Positions 1,272 through 12,051 of a DNA stretch of 38,790 nucleotides are shown one piece after another (position 1 is the first letter of the stretch; the number at the start of each line of letters is the position of its first letter). The stretch covers positions 8,726 through 47,515 of the forward strand of contig JAJZRE010000006.1 of the NCBI GenBank assembly GCA_021802945.1, written 5' to 3'. The DNA comes from Pseudomonadota bacterium (lineage in GTDB: Bacteria; Pseudomonadota; Gammaproteobacteria; Burkholderiales; Thiobacillaceae). The translations under genes and the position numbers were made by a program. The notes below the pieces were generated by a model. It made no database searches. It was not told the origin of the DNA and saw nothing but the letters and a program-made list of their open reading frames with translations.

Positions 1272-3401
1272 TTACGCCGCCAGACGCGACAAGTCCGCAA
1301 CCCGGTTCATGGTCTGGCGCAACTGGTTCAGCAGCGCCAGCCGGTTGGCTTTCAGCGCGGGATCGTCGGCGTTGACCATCACGTTGTCGAAGAAGGCATC
1401 GACCGGCGTCTTCAGCGCGGCCAGCGCCTGCAGCGAGGCCGTGTAGTCGCCGGCGGCAAACGCGGCCTCGGCGCGCGGTGCGATCTCACTGAGCGCTGCA
1501 AACAATGCCGTTTCCGCCGCCTCGACGAAGCGGGACGGGTCGGCTTTCTCCCCCACCTCCCCCTCGGCTTTTTTCAGAATGTTGCCGACGCGCTTGTTGG
1601 CCGCCGCCAGACTGGGGGACTCGGGCAGCGAGGCAAATTCCCGCACCGCGCGCAGCCGTTTTACGACGTCGTGCAGCGGCGGCATGTTGGCGAACACCGC
1701 AGCGGTCGCCTCGGCGCCGTAGGCGGGCGCCAGCTGATTCGCATTGCGCTCGTAGATGAACAGTTTCAGTTCCTCGGCCACGTTCCCGGCGAGCACACCG
1801 GCCGGGAAGACCGACATGCCGAAGGCGATCAGCGCGTCGAGATCAAGCTGCATTTCCTGATTAAGCGCGCAGGACATGCCGCCCAACAGCTGGAACGACT
1901 TGATCACCGAGAGCGCATGGCGGCGCAGGGCAAACGGATCCTTGTCGCCTGTCGGCCTGAGCCCGATGCCCCAGATGCCCACCAGCGTTTCCGTACGGTC
2001 CGCGATCTGCAGCACCTCACTGATGAGATTGGAGACATCCTCGGTCTCGTCGCGGCGCACCCGATACTGGTCGGCGATCGCCTGCGCGACCGCCTCGTCC
2101 TCGCCGTCGTGGCGCGCGTAATAGCCGCCCATGATGCCCTGCAGTTCGGGGAACTCGCCGACCATGTCGGTGAGGAGATCGGCCTTGGCGAGCAACGCCG
2201 CACGGTCTGCCAGATCCACGTTCGCACCCACCTTGTCCGCCACCCACCTGGCGATGGCGCGCACCCGCTCGACCCGCTCGCCCTGGCTGCCGAGTTTGTT
2301 GTGGTAGACGACCTTCATCAGCCCCGGCACGCGATCCGCCAGTTTCTTCTTGCGATCCTGATCGAAGAAGAACTTGGCATCGGCCAGACGCGGGCGCACC
2401 ACGCGCTCGTTGCCGCCGATCACGGCGGACGCATCGGCGGGCGAGATGTTGGAAACGATGAGGAAGCGGTTGGTCAGCTTGCCCGCCGCGTCAAGCAGCG
2501 GGAAGTATTTCTGGTTTGCCTTCATCGTGAGGATCAGGCACTCCGGCGGCACCTCGAGGAAAGCCTCCTCGAACTGGCCGACCAGCACATTGGGGCGTTC
2601 GACCAGCGCGGTGACTTCGTCCAGCAGGGCATCGTCCTCGATCGGCGTCAGGCCTGACGGTGCGGCCGCTGCCTGCAACTGGCGGACGATCTCGGCGCGG
2701 CGTTCGGCGAAGCTGGCGATCACCGCACCGTCATCCTTCAACTGGCTGGCGTAACCGTCCGCACTTTGGATCATCACCGGGCTCACGCGCGCCTCGAAGC
2801 GATGGCCCCGGGTCTCGCGCCCGGCCTGCAGGCCCAGCACGGTAACTGGCACGATGTCCGTGCCGTGCAAAGCGATCAGGCTGTGCGCGGGACGCACGAA
2901 ATTGACCGTTTCCCAGCCATCGCCTGACGGATCGGGATAGGTCATCACCTTGGGAATCGGCAGCTTGGCCAAGGTCTCCTCGATAGCTGTTTTCAGGCCG
3001 CCTTCCAAGCCCATACCGGGCACAAGAATATCCAGGAACAACGCTTCGGCTTTGCCGTCCGAGGCGCGTTTAAGCATCGGCATGTTGTCAGCATCGTATC
3101 CAAGTGGGGCTAGTTTTTTAAGCAATGCTGCCGTGGGCTGGCCATTGGCGTCGAGGCCCACACTGACGGGCATCAGCTTTTGTGACTGTCGTTTGTCGTT
3201 GGCCTGGACGGCCACGGCCGTGATGTGCGCCGCTAGGCGGCGAGGTGAAGCATAGGACGTGGCCACACTATCGGTTTCCGTCAGCCCCTGAGCCTTGAGG
3301 GACTCGAACAAGGCAATGGAGAAAGCCTCGCCCAGCTTTTTCAGCGCCTTGGGCGGCAGTTCCTCGACGAACAGTTCAACCAGTAGATTTTGAGCGCTCA
3401 T
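1272..3401 (-). CDS. glyS: glycine--tRNA ligase, beta subunit
   Basis: Beta subunit (709 residues) of the heterotetrameric bacterial glycyl-tRNA synthetase, which charges tRNA-Gly together with GlyQ. The N-terminus ([20 protein letters not shown]) is highly characteristic, as are the internal blocks [19 protein letters not shown] and [15 protein letters not shown] and the [13 protein letters not shown] segment. The length matches the roughly 690-residue family norm. The start ATG overlaps the glyQ stop as ATGA, so the two subunits are translationally coupled, as expected for an obligate complex. Nothing unusual was seen. Confidence 0.96.
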
Positions 3402-4321
3402 GCCGCCGCCTTCTTTTCGATCTGCGCCATCACCTCATCCGCCCAGGCACGCGGCGCCATCGGAAAGCCCAGCCGCGCGCGGCTGTCGAGGTAGCTCTTC
3501 GCCACCGCGCGCGCCAGGTTGCGGATGCGGCCGATGTAGGCGGCGCGCTCGGTCACCGAAATCGCGCCGCGGGCGTCGAGCAGGTTGAAGGTGTGCGCGG
3601 CTTTCAGCACCTGCTCGTAGCCCGGCAGCGCGAGCTGCGCCGCCATCAGTTCCTGCGCGGTCTTCTCGTGCGCGGCAAACGCGGCGAGCAGGAAATCGAC
3701 GTCGCTGTGCTCGAAGTTGTAGGCGGACTGCTCGACCTCGTTCTGGTGGTAGACGTCGCGGTAGGTCAGGCCCTCGGTCCAGACCAGGTCGTACACGCTT
3801 TCCACGCCCTGCAGGTACATGGCCAGGCGCTCCAGGCCGTAGGTGATCTCGCCGGTGATCGGCTTGCAGTCGATGCCGCCGACCTGCTGGAAGTAGGTGA
3901 ACTGGGTCACTTCCATGCCGTTCAGCCACACCTCCCAGCCCAGCCCCCAGGCGCCCAGCGTGGGATTTTCCCAGTCGTCCTCGACGAAGCGCACGTCGTT
4001 CTTCTTGAGGTCGAAGCCCAGCGCTTCCAGCGAGCCGAGATACAGCTCCAGGATGTCCGCCGGCGCGGGTTTCAGCACCACCTGGAACTGGTAATAATGC
4101 TGCAGCCGGTTGGGGTTGTCGCCGTAGCGGCCGTCCTTGGGGCGGCGGCTCGGCTGCACGTAGGCGGCCTTCCACGGCTCGGGACCGAGCGCGCGCAGGA
4201 AGGTCGCGGTATGCGAGGTGCCGGCGCCGACTTCCATGTCGTAGGGCTGCAGCAGCGCGCAGCCGCGCTCGGCCCAGTAGCGCTGCAGGGTGAGGATGAT
4301 GTCCTGGAAGGTGGGTTTCAC
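3398..4321 (-). CDS. glyQ: glycine--tRNA ligase, alpha subunit
   Basis: Alpha subunit (307 residues) of tetrameric glycyl-tRNA synthetase, the class II catalytic subunit. It opens [16 protein letters not shown] and contains [34 protein letters not shown] and [15 protein letters not shown], which form the class II core. Length is normal for the family (about 300). It is the first gene of the minus-strand glyQ-glyS-gmhB-plsC set. A weak -10-like TAAAAT on the minus strand at 4352-4357 may belong to its promoter, but no convincing -35 was seen. Confidence 0.96.
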
Positions 4322-4463: not shown

Positions 4464-6422
4464 TCAAGCACCCTCCAGCGCCTCAATCTCCCCCGACAAC
4501 GCCAGCCACTCCCCCTCTTCAATCGCCAATTCGTCAATGACGTGCTGGAGCTGCCGGCCGGTTTCGGTAATTTCCTCGACAGAAAGCGTTTCGCACAAAC
4601 GCGCTTCGAACGCCGCCTTTTCGGCCTGCAGCGCAGCCATGCTTTTGTCGAGCTTCTCCAGTTTCTGCCTGAGCGACTTGAGCTTGCCCGAAGACACCGG
4701 CTTCTTCGCCGGCGCCGGCGCGGGTTCCGCTTTCACAACCGGCGCTTCCGCCAGCTTGCCCGCCTGCTTCAGTTCTTCGCGCAGCCGCTTGCCCTCCTCC
4801 AGCAGATAGCGCTGGTAGTCGTCGAGGTCGCCGTCGAACGGCTCCACTCCGCCGCGCGTGACCAGCCAGAACTCGTCGCACACGGATCGCAGCAGGGCGC
4901 GGTCGTGGCTGACCAGCATGACGGTGCCTTCGAATTCGTTGAGCGCCATTGCCAACGCTTCGCGCGTGGCCAGATCCAGATGGTTGGTCGGCTCGTCCAG
5001 CAGCAGCAGATTCGGCCGTTGCCACACGATCATGCACAGCACCAGCCGCGCCTTTTCGCCGCCGCTCATGGTGCCGACCGCCTGCTTGACCATGTCGCCG
5101 CTGAAGTTGAAGGTGCCGAGAAAGGTGCGCAGGTCCTGCTCGCGGCTGCTGAACTGGCCGGCGCCGCCATTCGCAATCGTGTCGCGGGCGAGCCGGATCA
5201 TGTGTTCCAGCGGCGTATCCAGCGGACGCAGCACGTCGAGTTCCTGCTGCGCGAAGTAGCCGATGTTGAGGCCGCGGCCTTCGGTGACGGCCCCGGCGGC
5301 GACCGGCAGCGCGCGCGCGACGGTCTTCACCAGCGTCGACTTGCCCTGGCCGTTGGCGCCGAGGATGCCGATGCGCTGCCCGGCGAAGACCGACTTGCTG
5401 ACGTGCCGCACGATCACCGTGGCGGGCGTGCCGGCCGGCGCATCCGCCGGCGGCGGGTAGCCGAAGCTGGCGTCGTCGATCGTCAGCATGGGGTTGGGCA
5501 GGTTCTGCGGCTCCTTGAATTCGAAGGTGAAATCCGCGCTCGCCAGCATCGGCGCCAGCTTTTCCATGCGATCCAGCGCCTTGACCCGGCTTTGCGCCTG
5601 CTTGGCCTTGCTGGCCTTGGCCTTGAAGCGGTTGATGAAGGCCTGCAGGTGGGCGATCTTGTCCTGCTGTTTGGCGAACGCCGCCTGCTGCAGCGCCATC
5701 TGCTCGGCGCGCATGTCCTCGAAGGTGCTGTAGTTGCCGCCGTAGCGGGTGAGCTGGCCGTTTTCGATGTGGATGGTGACGTTGGTCACCGCGTCGAGAA
5801 ATTCGCGGTCGTGGCTGATCACCAGCAGGGTGCCGGGGTATTTCTTCAGCCAGGCTTCCAGCCACACCAGGGCGTCGAGGTCGAGGTGGTTGGTCGGTTC
5901 GTCGAGCAGCAGCAGGTCGGACGGGCACATCAGCGCGCGCGCGAGCTGCAGGCGCATGCGCCAGCCGCCGGAAAAGCTGTTGACCGGCCGGTCGAGCTCG
6001 CGCACCTGGAAGCCCAGCCCGAGAATCAACGCCTGCGCGCGCGACTGCGCATCGTGCGCGCCGGCGTCGTGCAGCGCCATGTAGGCGTGCGCCATGCGCT
6101 CGCCGTCGTCGCTGGCCTCGGCCGAAACCACTTCACGCTGCGCATCGGCCAAAAGCGTATCGCCGGCGATGACGAAATCGGTCGCGGATTCGCTCGTCTC
6201 CGGCATGTCCTGCGCCACCTGCGCCATGCGCCACTGCGACGGCATGGAAAAGTCGCCGCGGTCTTCGTGCAGGGTGCCGTTCAGCAATGCGAACAGGCTG
6301 GACTTGCCGGCGCCGTTGCGGCCGACCAGGCCGACCTTTTCGCCGGGATTGATCGACACCGAGGCATTGTCGAGCAGGACCTTGGCGCTGCGCCGCAGGC
6401 TGATGTTCTTGAGGATGATCAT
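4464..6422 (-). CDS. yheS: ABC-F family ATPase, YheS type
   Basis: Soluble ABC-F protein (652 residues) with two ATPase domains and no membrane segments; the family acts on ribosomes to relieve translational problems. Domain 1 has Walker A GRNGAGKSS, signature FSGGW and Walker B LLLLDEPTNHLDLD. A linker of the kind that reaches the ribosomal E site follows. Domain 2 has GANGQGKST, MSGGEKARL and LLLLDEPTNHLDLA. The C-terminal ~80 residues are Lys/Glu-rich and predicted coiled coil, as in YheS and Uup. The start MIILKNISLRR and the length (E. coli YheS is about 637) favour YheS over EttA or Uup. The ATG at 6422 is preferred over an in-frame start at 6764, whose 114 extra codons lack family resemblance. 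No clear ribosome-binding site was seen. Confidence 0.9.
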   Translation of the reverse strand: MIILKNISLRRSAKVLLDNASVSINPGEKVGLVGRNGAGKSSLFALLNGTLHEDRGDFSMPSQWRMAQVAQDMPETSESATDFVIAGDTLLADAQREVVSAEASDDGERMAHAYMALHDAGAHDAQSRAQALILGLGFQVRELDRPVNSFSGGWRMRLQLARALMCPSDLLLLDEPTNHLDLDALVWLEAWLKKYPGTLLVISHDREFLDAVTNVTIHIENGQLTRYGGNYSTFEDMRAEQMALQQAAFAKQQDKIAHLQAFINRFKAKASKAKQAQSRVKALDRMEKLAPMLASADFTFEFKEPQNLPNPMLTIDDASFGYPPPADAPAGTPATVIVRHVSKSVFAGQRIGILGANGQGKSTLVKTVARALPVAAGAVTEGRGLNIGYFAQQELDVLRPLDTPLEHMIRLARDTIANGGAGQFSSREQDLRTFLGTFNFSGDMVKQAVGTMSGGEKARLVLCMIVWQRPNLLLLDEPTNHLDLATREALAMALNEFEGTVMLVSHDRALLRSVCDEFWLVTRGGVEPFDGDLDDYQRYLLEEGKRLREELKQAGKLAEAPVVKAEPAPAPAKKPVSSGKLKSLRQKLEKLDKSMAALQAEKAAFEARLCETLSVEEITETGRQLQHVIDELAIEEGEWLALSGEIEALEGA

Positions 6423-6695
6423 GCTGGGGTGCGGCGCGCAGGACACGCGCCGCCTCAATCGAAAGCCGGATTCTACCTTGCCTCGCCCATCCGCCCGATC
6501 GGCGTGTCGAGTGTTTAACGCTTCGACACGGGATGACGGTTTTCCGTCAATCGGCGCCACGCCGCGCGCCAAGACCTTCGGCACCACGCGTACAACGCAT
6601 TGTTTTGTCTGTGCTTTCCTTGGCCCGCCCCCGGCCGGCCAGATGGCACAGGCATTGCAGGTACTCTGGCAAGCCACCCAACCAAGGAGCGCATC

Positions 6696-6848
6696 ATGAA
6701 ACTGCAATTCGGCCAAAACCAACTGGTCCTCGAACTCAGCTCCTCGCCTTTTGCCTGGTTTCACGGGCAGACCGAGCGCATGAGCCTCACCAGCCTGTCG
6801 CTGCTGTTCGTGCAGTTTTCGCTGTTTGCCCGTCAGCCCGCGGCCTGA
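6696..6848 (+). CDS. small protein of unknown function, first of a tandem pair
   Basis: A 50-codon ORF with a good ribosome-binding site (AAGGAG at 6684-6689). I do not recognise the product. It has no signal peptide, is moderately hydrophobic at its C-terminal end (MSLTSLSLLFVQF) and lacks Cys. Its stop overlaps the next ORF's start as TGATG. The two products align without gaps over 37 residues with about 18 identities, including PxAxF, GxT, RMS, SLxLLFVxF. That paired similarity is the main evidence that both are real genes. Divergent from the YheS-type gene, with 273 nt between the starts. Confidence 0.65.
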   Translation: MKLQFGQNQLVLELSSSPFAWFHGQTERMSLTSLSLLFVQFSLFARQPAA

Positions 6849-7265: not shown

Positions 7266-7333
7266 GGGGCATTGCCCGTGCTTTTTGTATCCAAATTTTC
7301 CACTTATTTAACCTAGGCAGACCACTACGCTGG

Positions 7334-7408
7334 GGTTGAACCTCGCTCGTAAAGGGTGAAGTTCAAACCGTTATCCCTCAATCACTGCTTCTTTAGGAGG
7401 TTCAAATG
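7334..7408 (+). promoter_or_regulatory. leader with alternative pairings that could mask the ribosome-binding site
   Basis: The 5' segment TTGAACC (7336-7342) is complementary to GTTCAA at 7361-7366 and also to GGTTCAA at 7399-7405. The latter covers the end of the AGGAGG ribosome-binding site (7395-7400) and abuts the ATG at 7406. The leader could therefore fold in two mutually exclusive ways, one sequestering the start. This is inferred from complementarity only. GTTCAA could alternatively be a DNA operator repeat. Confidence 0.35.
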
Positions 7409-7699
7409 AACGCGAAAAAACTGGTAACCACCCTTGTGGCTGTCCCTCTCGTGGCAATGTCCAGCCTGGTTTTTGCAGCCGAGCCTATGCAACTGAGCGA
7501 CGCGCAGATGGACGGCGTTACCGCCGGTGGTCTTGCTGACGCCATGGCTACCGCCATCGCCATTGGCAAGTCCACTGCGGCTACGCAAACTTTTACCTTG
7601 ACCACGCTTACAGCAACCGCCCCCGTGACTGGTGAGCTCAGTCGGCTCGTGCGGATCAACTCACTTTCACAGGCGGGGTCGGTTTCGATTGCGTTTTAA
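7406..7699 (+). CDS. small exported Q-M-D motif protein 1
   Basis: A 97-residue protein with a clear Sec signal peptide (KK at 4-5, hydrophobic 6-23, likely cleavage at VFA-A or just after). The conserved motif follows directly: LSDAQMDGVTAGG at residues 30-42. The remainder is Thr/Ala/Ser-rich with alternating polar and apolar residues (FTLTTLTATAPV), suggesting beta structure, and has no Cys. The ribosome-binding site AGGAGG is excellent. The motif recurs in the next two genes and at 11290. It resembles a double-glycine leader end, which C39 peptidases cut, and a C39-type protease gene lies at 8880. I do not recognise a characterised homologue; a secreted or fibre-forming subunit is my inference. 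Confidence 0.85.
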   Translation: MNAKKLVTTLVAVPLVAMSSLVFAAEPMQLSDAQMDGVTAGGLADAMATAIAIGKSTAATQTFTLTTLTATAPVTGELSRLVRINSLSQAGSVSIAF

Positions 7700-7759
7700 T
7701 GCGCATTCCGAATGCTGATTTTACTGATTAATCTTGGCTCTTCCATAGGAGATTTAGAC

Positions 7760-8065
7760 ATGAAAACCATTACTTCCACGTTCGTTGCTGGCCTGCTGCT
7801 CGCTTCCGCCGGTCTAGCCAATGCCGGGCCCGTCGCCCTTACCGATGCCCAGATGGACGGCGTCACCGCCGGTGGCACCGCCATTGCTCTTGGTGCCGCT
7901 GGCAGCTTCGGCGACTGGGTTTCGCACACTGGCGCCTATACTCAGACGCTTGTGAACGACAACACGTTCGCGGGTGGGGCGGCTCAGTCTTATGCGGTTG
8001 CCGTTTCGTACCTGGGTGTGGCTCTCGCAGGCAGCACCGCCGCCTCTACCGCCACGCTGCCGTAA
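7760..8065 (+). CDS. small exported Q-M-D motif protein 2
   Basis: A 101-residue protein with signal peptide (cleavage near ANA-GP, residue 22) followed by LTDAQMDGVTAGG at residues 27-39, nearly identical to the motif in the upstream protein. The rest is Ala/Gly/Ser/Thr-rich (GAAGSFGDW, AGGAAQSYAVAVSYLGVALAG) and Cys-free. AGGAG precedes the ATG at 7760; I chose it over an in-frame start at 7712 because it places the signal peptide at the N-terminus. The gap to the upstream gene is 60 nt, so the two are probably co-transcribed. Function not known; see the cluster finding. Confidence 0.85.
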   Translation: MKTITSTFVAGLLLASAGLANAGPVALTDAQMDGVTAGGTAIALGAAGSFGDWVSHTGAYTQTLVNDNTFAGGAAQSYAVAVSYLGVALAGSTAASTATLP

Positions 8066-8087
8066 GGGAGTTCGGGTAGCGGGTGGG

Positions 8088-8116
8088 ACACGCCCTATGC
8101 GCAGCGTGGGGCGTGT
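8088..8116 (+). other. intercistronic hairpin between Q-M-D genes 2 and 3
   Basis: A perfect 8-bp stem (ACACGCCC 8088-8095, GGGCGTGT 8109-8116) with a 13-nt loop, followed by the mildly T-rich GTCTGTCT. It could be a weak terminator/attenuator or an RNA-stability element setting relative subunit levels. Confidence 0.5.
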
Positions 8117-8151
8117 GTCTGTCTAGCTAGGAACGCATAATTTAGGAGAAA

Positions 8152-8598
8152 ATGATGATTAAGAACACCCTTGGTGCGGTGCTGCTCCTATGCGGCGTGT
8201 CGTCAGCGGCCATGGCCGACCCAGTGGTGCTTGGGGCGGCTCAGATGGATGCCGTGACGGCAGGCGCCGACGCTACAGCTGGCAGTCTGGCTCTGGCCGC
8301 CGGCGCCTTTGTCGTTACCGGGACGTCCACCACCTCTAATGTTGCTGCATACACCGTGAGCGGGCCCTATGGAGGATCCTACGATACGGCCGATGTGGCG
8401 GTAGCTGAGTCTGTCGGGACAGCCACAGCGTTCGGGCCGACAGCGGACGTTGCCACGGCAGCCACGACATCGGCCTCGGTGCCGGGAACGCGGATTTTGG
8501 TCATTGGCGGGAACACGAGCCGGCAAGTCGGCGGCACCTCGATCAGCGGCAGCGTCTTGGTGGCATATGGCACTTATGAGCAACCGTTTTTCAGGTGA
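8152..8598 (+). CDS. small exported Q-M-D motif protein 3
   Basis: A 148-residue protein with signal peptide (cleavage near AMA-DP, residue 22), then VVLGAAQMDAVTAGA at residues 26-39, a divergent form of the shared motif. The mature part is a low-complexity Ala/Thr/Ser/Gly/Val sequence with many TxT and AxA steps, as expected for extended beta structure, ending GTYEQPFFR. The single Cys (residue 14) is inside the signal peptide. AGGAG lies at 8144-8148; two adjacent ATGs (8152, 8155) are possible starts. It is the last gene before a strong terminator. Function unknown. Confidence 0.85.
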   Translation: MMIKNTLGAVLLLCGVSSAAMADPVVLGAAQMDAVTAGADATAGSLALAAGAFVVTGTSTTSNVAAYTVSGPYGGSYDTADVAVAESVGTATAFGPTADVATAATTSASVPGTRILVIGGNTSRQVGGTSISGSVLVAYGTYEQPFFR

Positions 8599-8658
8599 GC
8601 CGCCCGCACCGATGCACCTTGCATGCGGGGCCGACGGCAACCATCGTCGTGCTACCGC

Positions 8659-8705
8659 CAAGCAGGGCCGACGATAATCCGTCGCCGGCCCTGCTTGATT
8701 TTTTC
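8659..8705 (+). terminator. Rho-independent terminator after the three Q-M-D genes
   Basis: A 12-bp GC-rich stem (CAAGCAGGGCCG at 8659-8670 pairing with 8686-8697), extendable by an inner ACG/CGT pair, is followed by ATTTTTTC. This is a textbook intrinsic terminator. It separates the three small-protein genes from the protease and barrel genes, which therefore need their own promoter or read-through. Confidence 0.9.
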
Positions 8706-8879
8706 ACAACCGCCTTGACGTGGCGGAATTGATCTTTCCGGCGCACGGCACTAGGATCACGCGACAGGGTCACCGAAAGCACGCCCAGCATCAAGGATTG
8801 CAGGACGCCTCTGCAGCCCCCCCTTTTCTCCGCGAAGATTACGAAAGCAGAAGTCTGTCTTAAGCGAAAGGTCTCATAC

Positions 8880-9515
8880 ATGGTTTCACTCCTGACCGGC
8901 CGGGGCGTCTGTGCCGGTTATGCGATTGTGTTGTTGGCCCTGTCCGCTCCCGCCCAGGCCCAGGAACGTGTGGTCACATCGCTATTTGAAACGCGGCGTG
9001 CGCACGTGGTCATCCAGGAATGGGACTTGAGTTGCGGCGCGGCCGCGCTCGCCACGCTGTTGCGCTACCAGTATGGCGAACCGGTGACCGAGAAGGAGGT
9101 CGCCGTCGCCCTGATGAACCGGCCCGAGTACCTCCGGCATCCCGAGCTGGTGCAGATCCGCCAGGGCTTCTCCTTGCTCGACCTCAAGCGCTACACGGAC
9201 GCCCTGGGCTATCTCGGGGTCGCCACCGGCAAGATGGAACTCAAGGATCTGCTCGTGAGGGCGCCCATCATGGTGCCCATCAATGCCCTGGGCTACAACC
9301 ATTTCGTCATCTTCCGCGGGCTGCGTGGCAATCGCGTGCTGCTCGCGGATCCCGCGTGGGGCAACCGCACCATGCTCGTAAGCGATTTTCTCGACGCATG
9401 GATCGACTTTCCGAATCTCGGCCATGTGGGCTTTGTGGTCAAGCAACGCAACGACGTCGAAGGACCGCCCAACGAGCTGGCGCCTCGGGACATGGATTTT
9501 GTCACCCTTGGGTAA
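8880..9515 (+). CDS. exported C39-family cysteine peptidase, FapD-like
   Basis: A 211-residue protein with a Sec signal peptide (hydrophobic 12-25, cleavage near AQA-QE at 27). A papain-like C39 peptidase domain follows, with probable oxyanion Gln46, nucleophile Cys52 in WDLSCGAAALATLL, His141 in GYNHFVIFRG and Asp157 in LLADPAWG, the expected spacing for C39. There is no ABC transporter fusion, so it should act alone in the periplasm, like FapD of the Pseudomonas functional-amyloid operon. The start of the barrel gene is 58 nt downstream. The double-glycine-like motifs of the neighbouring exported proteins are plausible substrates (inference). AAAGG about 10 nt upstream is the likely ribosome-binding site. 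Confidence 0.88.
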   Translation: MVSLLTGRGVCAGYAIVLLALSAPAQAQERVVTSLFETRRAHVVIQEWDLSCGAAALATLLRYQYGEPVTEKEVAVALMNRPEYLRHPELVQIRQGFSLLDLKRYTDALGYLGVATGKMELKDLLVRAPIMVPINALGYNHFVIFRGLRGNRVLLADPAWGNRTMLVSDFLDAWIDFPNLGHVGFVVKQRNDVEGPPNELAPRDMDFVTLG

Positions 9516-9573
9516 AGCCAATAGGCTTTGCACGGGTTCGAATACGCTTTCAAGTTAATTCAAGAGGCAAGGA

Positions 9574-10842
9574 ATGAGACGGATAAGATCGCAAACGATG
9601 TTGATTTCAGCTTTATCCGGCATCGGCCTGCTGTCCGTTTCGTCACCGTCGCTTGCCGCGGACCCCCCATCCCGAAGCGGCGCATCCGCCGCAACCCGCA
9701 AGCCGACCGCAAACCAAGCGAACATCGCCCAGCTGCAAAAAAGGATGAACGAGCTGGATCGACAACTGGCGGCGCGTGATGCGCTGATCGCCCAGTTGCA
9801 GAAACAGGCGAATGACCTTGAGCGGCGGCTGAATGCCCTTGGAACCCCCGATACCGCCGCAAGCCGGGGCGCGACGGGAAAGGTGGCTGCCGCGGTGCCA
9901 CCGCACGCACCCGTGGCGTCGGCGCAACCGCATCCGCCCGCGGCAACGGACGGCCAGCCCAGCAAGAAACCCGCGGGGCCCGGCAGCTTCTCGGTCGACG
10001 TAGAAGCCGCCCAGCGCGCCCTGGAGCGGAACCTTACCCAGACGGGCGCGCTGTTGCTGCCGGCCGGCCAGATCGATTTCGAGCCGAGTTTTAGCTTTAC
10101 ACACCGTGAAGTCTCTAATCCGTCCTACTACCTATTGGGGGCGAATCTGGTGCTCGCGTCCCAGCAGCTGAAGCGAGACGAAATGACCGGGAGCCTTGAC
10201 GTAAAGGTCGGGCTGCCATGGGACTCCCAGTTGGAATTCGGCCTCCCTTACATCTCCGTGCACCAGCGTCTTTTAACCGATCTCGGCGACGGCGGGCGCT
10301 TTGCCGGATCGGCAAACGCCAGCGGTCTGGGCGATTTGTCGGTGGGGGTGGCCAAGACCCTGACGCGCGAGCACGGCTGGCGCCCTGACCTCATCGGGCG
10401 GCTTACCTATATCGTTGGCAACGGAGACCGGATTAACAACGGGGTTGCGCTGCCGGCAGGCAATCCAGCAGCCCAGGTCCAGCTGGTCGCCCTCAAGCGC
10501 CAGGATCCGTTGGCCTTTGTCGGAAGCCTTTCCTATCAGAAGGCCTTCGAGAAGGACCTGATCAAGCAGGGCGATCAGGTCGGCTTCTCCCTGGGGACCA
10601 TGCTGGCCGCAAGCCCCCAGACATCGCTGCAATTCTCTTTCTCCCAGACCTTCGCGCAGAAGCTGCAAATCAACGGCAGCAAGGTTCCCGGATCGGAGCA
10701 GACGGTCGGTATGTTCAACGTGGGCGCTTCCTCCATCCTGAGCAAGAACGTGATGTTCAACACGGTGTTAAGTATGGGACTGAGCAACGATGCGCCCAAA
10801 TACGCCATCCAGTTTACACTGCCGATCCGCTTCAATTATTGA
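9574..10842 (+). CDS. outer-membrane beta-barrel with N-terminal coiled coil, FapF-like
   Basis: A 422-residue exported protein. Order of parts: signal peptide (cleavage near SLA-AD, residue 29), a heptad-patterned coiled coil at about 48-89 (IAQLQKRMNELDRQL and LIAQLQKQANDLERRL), an Ala/Pro-rich linker (91-137), and from about 165 a C-terminal domain of alternating amphipathic strands ending IQFTLPIRFNY, with a terminal aromatic as in outer-membrane porins. Length and layout match FapF, the trimeric barrel that exports Fap amyloid subunits in Pseudomonas. A generic phenol-pathway-type transporter barrel would be the main alternative, but the C39 protease gene 58 nt upstream favours the Fap reading. 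AGAGG at 9563-9567 is the ribosome-binding site. Confidence 0.83.
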   Translation: MRRIRSQTMLISALSGIGLLSVSSPSLAADPPSRSGASAATRKPTANQANIAQLQKRMNELDRQLAARDALIAQLQKQANDLERRLNALGTPDTAASRGATGKVAAAVPPHAPVASAQPHPPAATDGQPSKKPAGPGSFSVDVEAAQRALERNLTQTGALLLPAGQIDFEPSFSFTHREVSNPSYYLLGANLVLASQQLKRDEMTGSLDVKVGLPWDSQLEFGLPYISVHQRLLTDLGDGGRFAGSANASGLGDLSVGVAKTLTREHGWRPDLIGRLTYIVGNGDRINNGVALPAGNPAAQVQLVALKRQDPLAFVGSLSYQKAFEKDLIKQGDQVGFSLGTMLAASPQTSLQFSFSQTFAQKLQINGSKVPGSEQTVGMFNVGASSILSKNVMFNTVLSMGLSNDAPKYAIQFTLPIRFNY

Positions 10843-11289
10843 ATCTCCACCTCTAGTAACCACCTCACCAAGAGGGGGGTTGCAGAAACTGGCCTCTTGA
10901 TAAAGGGGGCCAGAAAAGGTTCCGGCTCGCTTACGCTCGTCCCTCCCTTCCAAGGACGTTGAGGCCAGGGAGCCTCATTCCCAATCCCCGCGTTTTTACT
11001 CTCCTAGCTGTCGAAAATCTTTACAGCTGCCGGCGCAAGCCGTCACCAAGAAATAAAATACTTCGAATAAACAGATGTATGTCTTCTTAGGCATGGCGTG
11101 TGCTTCCGCTTTATATTGTGGACTGAGTCGAGCGTGCCGCCGCCGTCGCCGTCCACTTCACTTCGCCGGTGGTGGTGAGCGACGTGAAAGCCAGCGCCTC
11201 GCTCCAGTAAAGGCGTAGCGGGGAGGCAGGAAATACCGGGCATTGCACGGAGCGCTTGCTCTTAGAAAAGCACCAGGCCTGGAGAAAAC
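10843..11289. other. 447-nt intergenic region without a supported gene
   Basis: It lies between the barrel gene and the fourth Q-M-D gene. It contains an 8-bp stem (10889-10896 with 10906-10913, one G-T pair, 9-nt loop) with no U-tract on the plus strand. The 11127-11210 stretch reads as 27 codons ending in a stop with no start, possibly a gene remnant. No promoter I would defend was found. Confidence 0.5.
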
Positions 11290-12051
11290 ATGAAGCTGAG
11301 AACACTTTGTGCGGTGGCTGTTCTGGGCGGCGCGATGACTGTGGTCAGGGCCGATCCCGTGGTTCTGGGGCCTGTTCAGATGGACGCGATCACGGCCGCC
11401 GGCGCTTATGCCAACGCACAGGCACATGCAGAGGCCAGTGCGAACGGCCTGGATGCGCTCACCCAGACATTGTCCAACGTGGCCCTCCTGAACGGGGTCC
11501 TGCCCCGTCTAACGGGCTATGGCGGGGGGAGCCAAGCCGCCGCCATGGTGGCCGCCAAGGGCCCTTCTGCGTATGTCGACGCCTCCGCGACGGCGCGGTA
11601 TGGGGCGGCAGGCGAAGCCACTGCGCTGGCCGCCGCCACCGGCCCCTCTGCTTTTGCCGCGATAGGCGCCGGAGTAGTCAGCATTCGTGGGCAGGACTAT
11701 CTGACGGGTTATCTTGCGGGTGGTGCGGACGCCGGGGTGACGACGGTCACCGCCCCCATTGCGCTGAGCGCATCCTCTGGCGTCTGGTCGCTGCCGGCAA
11801 TGCGGCCGGCGGCCAGCGCCCCCGTGGTGTCGGTGGCATCGACCGCGGTCTCGGGCGGGGAGCTTGTGGCCTACACGCTCACCACGGGCGACCGGAATGG
11901 CGACACGTCGACCGGCGACCACGCCACACTTTCGCTGACGTTTTTCAAACCCCCGCGTTCGCGCATCCCGCCGATGATCCCGATCGACATATCCGGTGCC
12001 GTGCCTGTGACGAGCACCACCGTCCTGCACGCAATACCCGTGGCAATGTGA
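11290..12051 (+). CDS. exported Q-M-D motif protein 4 (large form)
   Basis: A 253-residue protein: signal peptide with cleavage near VRA-DP (residue 21), then VVLGPVQMDAITAAG at residues 24-38, closest to the motif of protein 3. The mature region is again Ala/Gly/Thr/Val-rich and Cys-free (stretches such as ANAQAHAEASANG and AAMVAAKGPSAYVDASATA), with two similar segments, GPSAYVDASATA and GPSAFAAIGAG. The C-terminus is Pro-rich (KPPRSRIPPMIP). GGAG lies upstream of the ATG at 11290. Being 447 nt past the barrel gene, it likely has its own promoter. The same region is open in another plus frame (11256-12257), which lacks a signal peptide and is rejected. Function unknown; a candidate minor or tip subunit by analogy only. 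Confidence 0.82.
   Translation: MKLRTLCAVAVLGGAMTVVRADPVVLGPVQMDAITAAGAYANAQAHAEASANGLDALTQTLSNVALLNGVLPRLTGYGGGSQAAAMVAAKGPSAYVDASATARYGAAGEATALAAATGPSAFAAIGAGVVSIRGQDYLTGYLAGGADAGVTTVTAPIALSASSGVWSLPAMRPAASAPVVSVASTAVSGGELVAYTLTTGDRNGDTSTGDHATLSLTFFKPPRSRIPPMIPIDISGAVPVTSTTVLHAIPVAM

Follow-up and report, generated by a model that had tools for sequence, protein, structure and literature searches.

A candidate C39 recognition leader on Sec-type proteins encoded beside an exported C39 protease and a FapF-type barrel

The locus and the shared leader element

The locus described here lies in a 38,790-nucleotide stretch of DNA (the window) from a Pseudomonadota bacterium of the Thiobacillaceae (GCA_021802945.1, contig JAJZRE010000006.1, positions 8,726 to 47,515 of the forward strand), whose genome (G000) is a 2.55-Mb assembly of 83 contigs and is 87.6% complete. 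Six genes, all on the + strand at 7406-12051 of the window, encode in this order three small proteins, a C39 cysteine protease, an outer-membrane barrel and a fourth small protein. The first small protein (substrate 1, 97 aa, 7406..7699) consists of a Sec signal peptide, a leader and a 56-aa core; substrates 2, 3 and 4 comprise 101 aa (7760..8065), 148 aa (8152..8598) and 253 aa (11290..12051), respectively. Ribosome-binding sites are clear by inspection before the first three small genes, and since the one before the second gene points to an ATG at 7760, this position was taken as its start instead of 7712, the start of the listed open reading frame (ORF). The signal peptides of the protease and of the four small proteins were likewise judged by inspection.

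Immediately past the signal peptide the four small proteins read LSDAQMDGVTAG followed by G (7493..7528, positions -12 to -1, with a predicted cut after AG), LTDAQMDGVTAG followed by G (7838..7873), LGAAQMDAVTAG followed by A (8230..8265) and LGPVQMDAITAA followed by G (11365..11400), all on the + strand and with the endings VTAG, VTAG, VTAG and ITAA. The second leader left after the signal peptide would comprise 15-16 residues, about (E/D)PVxLTDAQMDGVTAG. The main result of this analysis is that this Q-M-D motif is likely to be a C39 recognition leader with the register L-12, E/Q-8, L/M-7, V/I-4, A/G-2 and G-1, an identity that goes beyond the preliminary description of this DNA, which missed it.

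As published, C39 leaders follow the consensus L(-12)xxxE(-8)L(-7)xxxxG(-2)G(-1), end in GG, GA or GS, and place V-4, L-7 and L-12 in a hydrophobic groove (PMC6959990, PMC6363468). The window leaders match at -12, -8, -7 and the hydrophobic -4, and their spacing equals the consensus at every position; the departure is A for G at -2, which is seen in all four leaders and in 98% of the relatives introduced below, few of which have G. Q at -8 is no obstacle because the Glu at this position can be replaced without loss in LahT150 (PMC6959990, PMC6363468). True GG ends occur in five related loci (L022, L025, L029, L036 and L044). When the published pattern was sought after the signal peptide in a form allowing Q at -8 and A at -2 and -1, it was found in 1 of 191 unrelated signal-peptide-like ORFs vs 71 of 89 leader ORFs, the latter having been chosen by profile and therefore not being independent; the four window proteins all conform to it by inspection.

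A profile built from the four window N-termini only detected, at E<=1e-3 in 39 related loci, 90 ORFs in 35 of them, and 0 in reversed as well as 0 in locally shuffled ORFs. The motif is not a chance resemblance, and the initial observation of four Sec-exported Ala/Thr/Gly/Ser-rich proteins sharing one motif holds, A, G, S and T making up 52-60% of the part past the motif. In the window's own genome the same profile gave no match beyond the four at E<=10. Among the 90 ORFs, in percentages that are not independent of the motif used to find them (see below), L-12 is found in 100%, Q/E-8 in 92%, M/L-7 in 99%, D-6 in 100%, V/I-4 in 97%, T/S-3 in 97%, A-2 in 98% and G-1 in 92%, with little conserved past -1. 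A seeded leader profile, whose regular expression fixed D-6 and restricted other positions, yielded at E<=0.1 a set of 133 leader ORFs in 36 of the 39 loci plus the window, 126 of them <=3 kb from the protease or the barrel. No leader ORF occurs in the other three: in L038 and L042 the sequence does not cover the part upstream of the protease, and L024 is a genuine miss. No account of this leader was found in the open-licence PMC literature, an absence that is weak evidence.

Promoter and terminator scans gave no signal exceeding shuffles. The downstream neighbour is a LysR regulator, which was excluded from the system, and upstream on the other strand (4464-6764) lies a gene for what we take to be an ABC-F ATPase, likewise not counted.

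The protease and the barrel beside Fap, Fil and peptidase-containing exporters

The 211-aa protease (8880..9515, +) matches Pfam Peptidase_C39 at 2.8e-12. An alignment of it with 27 relatives shows no variation at Q46, C52, H141 or D157 in any of the 28 sequences, and Q46 lines up with the oxyanion Gln of LahT; together with the signal peptide, this confirms the exported C39-type enzyme with C52, H141 and D157 that had been proposed. It scores 91.5 bits with the NCBIfam FilB model (cut-off 475) and 89.3 bits with the FapD model (cut-off 330), which makes it kin to both and a member of neither. In a tree of 75 proteases, 45 of the window lineage lie on one side of a branch with support 95/80, and the FapD-like and Fil-like rows fall outside; the protease is a separate lineage, neither FapD nor FilB. 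A very long row (L076, from G124) adjoins the window lineage, its placement being unsure. An Acetobacteraceae assembly carries a tandem pair of window-lineage proteases (L035:2427-3104 and 3318-3947), and a second, distant C39 relative occurs at L079 (G139 C1) and L015:13199-13969 in genomes also carrying a window-type pair; L079 additionally holds a barrel relative and a protein bearing VSHEELDQMRGG.

A search of the PDB with the 28-sequence profile (E<=0.05) returned 5 sequences, each of them a C39 domain from a bacteriocin-type ABC transporter and LahT150 being the best relative (6mpz, 6e-7), and the best fold matches of the AlphaFold2 model (mean pLDDT 81.6) are PCAT1, LahT150 with leader peptide, and ComA. 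The window system thus shares C39 fold, catalytic residues and leader register with PCAT-type or type I secretion (LahT, ComA, PCAT1; class II microcins). In contrast to these exporters it has no ABC part, its protease and cargo both carry Sec-type signal peptides, A replaces G at -2, and the likely exit is a FapF-type barrel. In another genome (G658), two Sec-type proteins (L104:6792-7133 and 7289-7684, +) have leaders ending in true GG (MSEAQLEAVEGG and LGDIALDRIEGG) and adjoin a distant, unclassified C39 relative.

The outer-membrane barrel (422 aa, 9574..10842, +) follows the protease directly. Its AlphaFold2 model (mean pLDDT 83.9), a single-chain model, predicts a coiled-coil-like helix at residues 47-88 (9712..9837, +), a short plug-like helix at residues 143-156 (10000..10041, +) and a beta barrel at residues 166-421 (10069..10836, +), all of FapF type; the barrel comprises 13 strand segments, of which the last is interrupted, beside the 12 strands described for FapF (PMC6173800), so that the model leaves the strand number unsettled. 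FapF is the closest solved structure both by profile (5o65, 1.6e-22) and by fold (5o67, 1.7e-18, TM 0.79 by target length), followed by a COG4313 channel, which bears out the early reading of a barrel with an N-terminal coiled coil. With the NCBIfam FapF model it scores 51.9 bits (cut-off 700). Profile searches placed neither partner in an unrelated family, the relatives being FapD/FilB and FapF at scores far below the NCBIfam cut-offs. Protease and barrel share a locus in 35 of the 39 related loci, and 3 of the 4 barrel-less loci end <=0.4 kb from the protease. In the Oxalobacteraceae loci L009, L010, L013, L014 and L017 the barrel gene stands on the opposite strand and is separated from the protease gene by the cargo genes.

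A 2013 survey regarded FapD and FapF as likely members of larger families (PMC3792158), and a 2018 review mentions that homologues of fapD and fapF are colocalised in another five phyla (PMC6173800). Since Fap likewise has an exported C39 protease beside a barrel that carries a coiled coil and a plug helix, the FapD-like and FapF-like pair could belong to a genuine Fap amyloid operon whose subunits have diverged. This is very improbable given the separate protease lineage, the NCBIfam scores far under cut-off, 0 FapE matches in G000 at its 87.6% completeness, 0 minimal Fap repeats in the four window proteins and a Q+N content of 3.6-6.3% in their cores; FapB and FapC had no NCBIfam match in the window, a genome-wide search for them not having been made. 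Moreover, the FapE-type element of Fap mostly ends G-R whereas the window cargo leaders end A-G, and window-type loci, unlike Fap, have several small cargos each, some of them unlinked in other genomes. Of the earlier proposal of a Fap-related system whose subunits lack the Q/N-repeat signature of FapB and FapC, the kinship with FapD and FapF and the missing repeats stand, while the protease is neither FapD nor FilB and no FapE was found in the genome. Because of this lack of FapE and of FapB/FapC repeats, the system is best read as a lineage that is sister to Fap and Fil rather than as a Fap operon.

In Fap itself, FapE is encoded between FapD and FapF. As reported in 2017, FapE alone among the Fap proteins has complete N-terminal processing and FapA-D appear unprocessed, FapC secretion requires the FapD cysteine, and the Fap proteins are said to have no canonical C39 sequences, with the target of FapD called unclear (PMC5557850). 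The 2018 review names the FapD substrate as yet to be determined (PMC6173800), a docking study from 2023 depicts FapC as the protein on which FapD acts (PMC10638192), and a 2025 review names FapE and FapF as the proteins that FapD presumably processes (PMC12822426). The protein at L105:6637-7371 (-), FapE by NCBIfam (346 vs a cut-off of 250 bits), reads LKDQELATLRGR followed by Y. An element [LIV]xxx(E)[LM]xxx(R)G[RKG] stands past the signal peptide in L105, L092, L093, L094, L102, L079 and L106-L119. This register was first seen by eye and then tested on 20 FapE or FapE-like rows, in which -12 is L/V/I in 20/20, -7 is L/M in 20/20, -2 is G in 20/20, and -8 is E in 14/20; position -4 has a hydrophobic residue in 16 rows and Q in the other 4, and -1 is occupied by R (15 rows), K (4) or G (1). 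Fourteen of the 20 rows are independent and come from the FapE model, none scoring above its cut-off; the other six include the rows that suggested the register (L105 above the FapE cut-off, L102 and L093 below it, L079 without a match, L092 and L094 unscanned). In a FapE homologue search the best 120 of 1282 proteins were all 88-100% identical to the query, and the divergent set was drawn from the FapE model. The exact cut in FapE is uncertain, since a basic -1 lies outside the published C39 ends and FapE-type proteins are conserved past -1, two points against extending the leader to FapE. The leader regular expression gave nothing convincing in 15 wider loci, mostly FapD-type, apart from two chance matches. 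FapB N-termini loosely resemble the pattern and were set aside because FapB is reported as unprocessed.

Fil (FilA, FilB, FilC) likewise combines a C39 protease with a smaller barrel. Six of 8 Fil-type loci (two nearly identical) encode a FilA-like Sec protein with a MDDAALSGVTGQ-type sequence in the leader register, and these FilA-like proteins show M/L-12, L-7, V/I-4, T-3 and G-2 past the signal peptide; the proteins stand upstream of FilB-type proteases in L057, L060, L061, L065, L066 and L067, and the two of the six that were checked match NCBIfam FilA below cut-off. A match in L058 looks like chance. In contrast to the window system, Fil has a distinct protease clade and FilA-like leaders that end G-Q, after which the sequence looks conserved by inspection; the FilA-type VTGQ ending is absent from all four window leaders. 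On Fil cleavage, the open-licence PMC literature gave nothing usable.

Co-occurrence with the protease lineage and unlinked cargo genes

Three draws of genomes were searched, from the class (232 genomes), the phylum (397) and the order of G106 (151), with G000 in the first two and G106 in all three. Protease scores in the class draw were 330, 322, 270, 225 and 146 bits, then <=132; leaders (E<=1e-4) were found in 5/5 lineage genomes vs 0/227 others (Fisher p 2e-10, an optimistic value), and all 12 leader matches lie <=2.4 kb from the protease. In the phylum draw 2/397 genomes carry the lineage, both with full-length leaders. The order of G106 has leaders in 13/13 lineage genomes (322-343 bits) vs 1/138 others (Fisher p 7e-18, likewise optimistic), and none of its 21 genomes holding only a distant C39 relative has leaders at E<=1e-4. 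The motif tracks this protease lineage, and Q-M-D genes are not widespread without the pair in the genomes searched, with one exception (G728) that is taken up below.

A further 18 of the 397 phylum genomes show weak matches (E 1e-5 to 1e-3), and the motif adjoins the signal peptide, as would be expected if it were merely a conserved signal-peptidase context or a structural N-terminus unrelated to the protease. None of the weak matches, however, passes position 34 of the 44 in the model, so that they rest mainly on the signal peptide, whereas the motif ends ~16 residues beyond the AxA site, agrees with an independently published consensus and, in full-length matches, follows one protease lineage. 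We therefore hold that explanation to be highly improbable.

The leader does not need linkage to the pair. Six leader proteins of G714 (E<=1e-4) are distant from the protease, none adjoining it, and G654 has four linked and two unlinked ones; from such unlinked genes in some genomes the leader probably also acts in trans. These unlinked Q-M-D paralogues are dispersed over the chromosome (L083-L086 in G714; L089 and L090 in G654), and several of those in G714 have near-identical N-termini and varied cores.

Cargo cores, the proposed route and its significance

The cores, measured for 127 of the 133 leader ORFs, span 23-241 aa and consist of 16% A, 11% S, 11% G and 11% T. Pfam and NCBIfam gave scattered weak matches and no known family across 83 substrates, in agreement with the unfamiliar substrate family first suggested; Pfam Curlin_rpt matched 1 of the 83 (E 0.004) and none of the window proteins. 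A search for homologues of substrate 2 at E<=10 gave no more than 7 proteins, probably a consequence of rapid divergence among the cores. In Oxalobacteraceae (L009, L010, L013, L014, L017), 17/24 cores carry an (A/S)PV..Q plus GN pattern that is found in 0/103 elsewhere, and 5/24 show Q.G..N.A (Q-x-G-x2-N-x-A) as in curli repeats. This curlin-like pattern hints at fibres in the Oxalobacteraceae; the window's own cores are without it and without the curlin repeat.

The size and composition of the cores and the double-glycine (GG)-type leader would also suit bacteriocins, that is, class II microcin or Cdz-like glycine-zipper killers released via Sec, C39 protease and barrel with no ABC exporter involved. 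Class II microcin precursors that have been verified are 75-120 aa long (PMC9746304), Cdz proteins, whose leaders end in G[G/A/S], aggregate at the surface (PMC5380434), and GxxxGxxxG occurs in 12/127 cores. Less compatible with killing are the 2-6 cargos per locus in 36/37 loci, the curlin-like pattern of the Oxalobacteraceae cores and the lack of an obvious immunity gene, as no + strand ORF of at least 60 aa lies wholly between the six genes (the genome as a whole was not searched for one). The 211-aa protein contains the single C39 domain found in G000 by a search that was positive in 8/14 control genomes, hence no C39-bearing ABC exporter was found in this 87.6% complete genome. A bacteriocin function is on balance unlikely.

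We favour as the probable route a two-step secretion, in which Sec export is followed by periplasmic removal of the leader and release through the barrel. The four small proteins would cross the inner membrane via Sec and lose their signal peptides, as their sequences suggest. L-12, M-7 and V-4 would then dock in the hydrophobic groove of the exported protease, which would cut after A-G; such docking was described for cytoplasmic C39 domains (PMC6959990, PMC6363468). By analogy with FapF, the unfolded A/G/S/T-rich cores would exit through the neighbouring barrel, whose coiled coil and plug helix may recruit cargo and gate the pore. The cores would probably stay outside on the surface as fibres or matrix, the weakest step of the scheme and, as regards fibre formation, a guess.

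Cutting of the cargo is the step on which a different view is conceivable. The leader could be only a docking or targeting tag bound by the C39 protein or the barrel and retained, with the protease cutting elsewhere, for example in the barrel linker, which lies between coil and plug and is predicted at low confidence, as if disordered; some C39-like domains are non-cutting chaperones, and FapB and FapC are unprocessed (PMC5557850, PMC6173800). That conservation drops directly past -1, as expected at a cut site, that P2 and P1 are usually both small residues (AG, GG or AA) and that Q46 and the catalytic residues are invariant speaks against a mere tag, which we consider rather doubtful.

Several points weigh against a leader that is cut by the neighbouring protease. 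The published ends GG, GA and GS keep G-2, but 98% of the relatives have A there, and single ORFs among the 90 carry N or E at -1. The percentages within the leader are not independent because the profiles contain the motif they find, and the Fisher values are optimistic because genomes of one order are kin. Furthermore, the 146-bit cut that admits G124 was chosen after the scores had been seen; at 200 bits the class draw becomes 4/4 vs 1/228. G728 (99% complete) has two leader genes (L087:9653-10330) and no lineage protease (no match at E<=1e-15), nor a barrel within ~9 kb of them; these genes are orphans or the result of a recent loss. Conversely, L024 and G714, near relatives in the tree with the same empty neighbourhood, lack a leader gene beside their protease/barrel pair, and L038 has no barrel in ~3.8 kb downstream of the protease. 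In Pseudomonas Fap, FapB and FapC are unprocessed by mass spectrometry (PMC5557850), so that cutting of the cargo is not always required.

In its general form, the idea is that a Sec signal plus a double-glycine-type leader, read in the periplasm by exported C39 proteases of the Fap, Fil and Q-M-D kinds, would license exit through FapF-type barrels, with the window family, its many cargos and unlinked trans cargo, as the most developed form and FapE as the FapD substrate via [LIV]xxxE[LM]xxxRG[RKG]; here we see the chances as evenly balanced. The substrate of FapD is undetermined in print, and the leader register makes that question testable. If the leader does work in trans, it would serve as a handle for surface display in laboratory strains. 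It also provides a sequence tag for cargo in methanotrophs, nitrifiers, Oxalobacteraceae, purple sulphur bacteria and some alphaproteobacteria, as named in the record titles. Taken together, the window offers a clue to the FapD question, namely a leader which exported C39 proteases would be expected to recognise and whose residues for substitution are defined, and it hints at how exporters of this kind select their cargo and at what FapD may cut.

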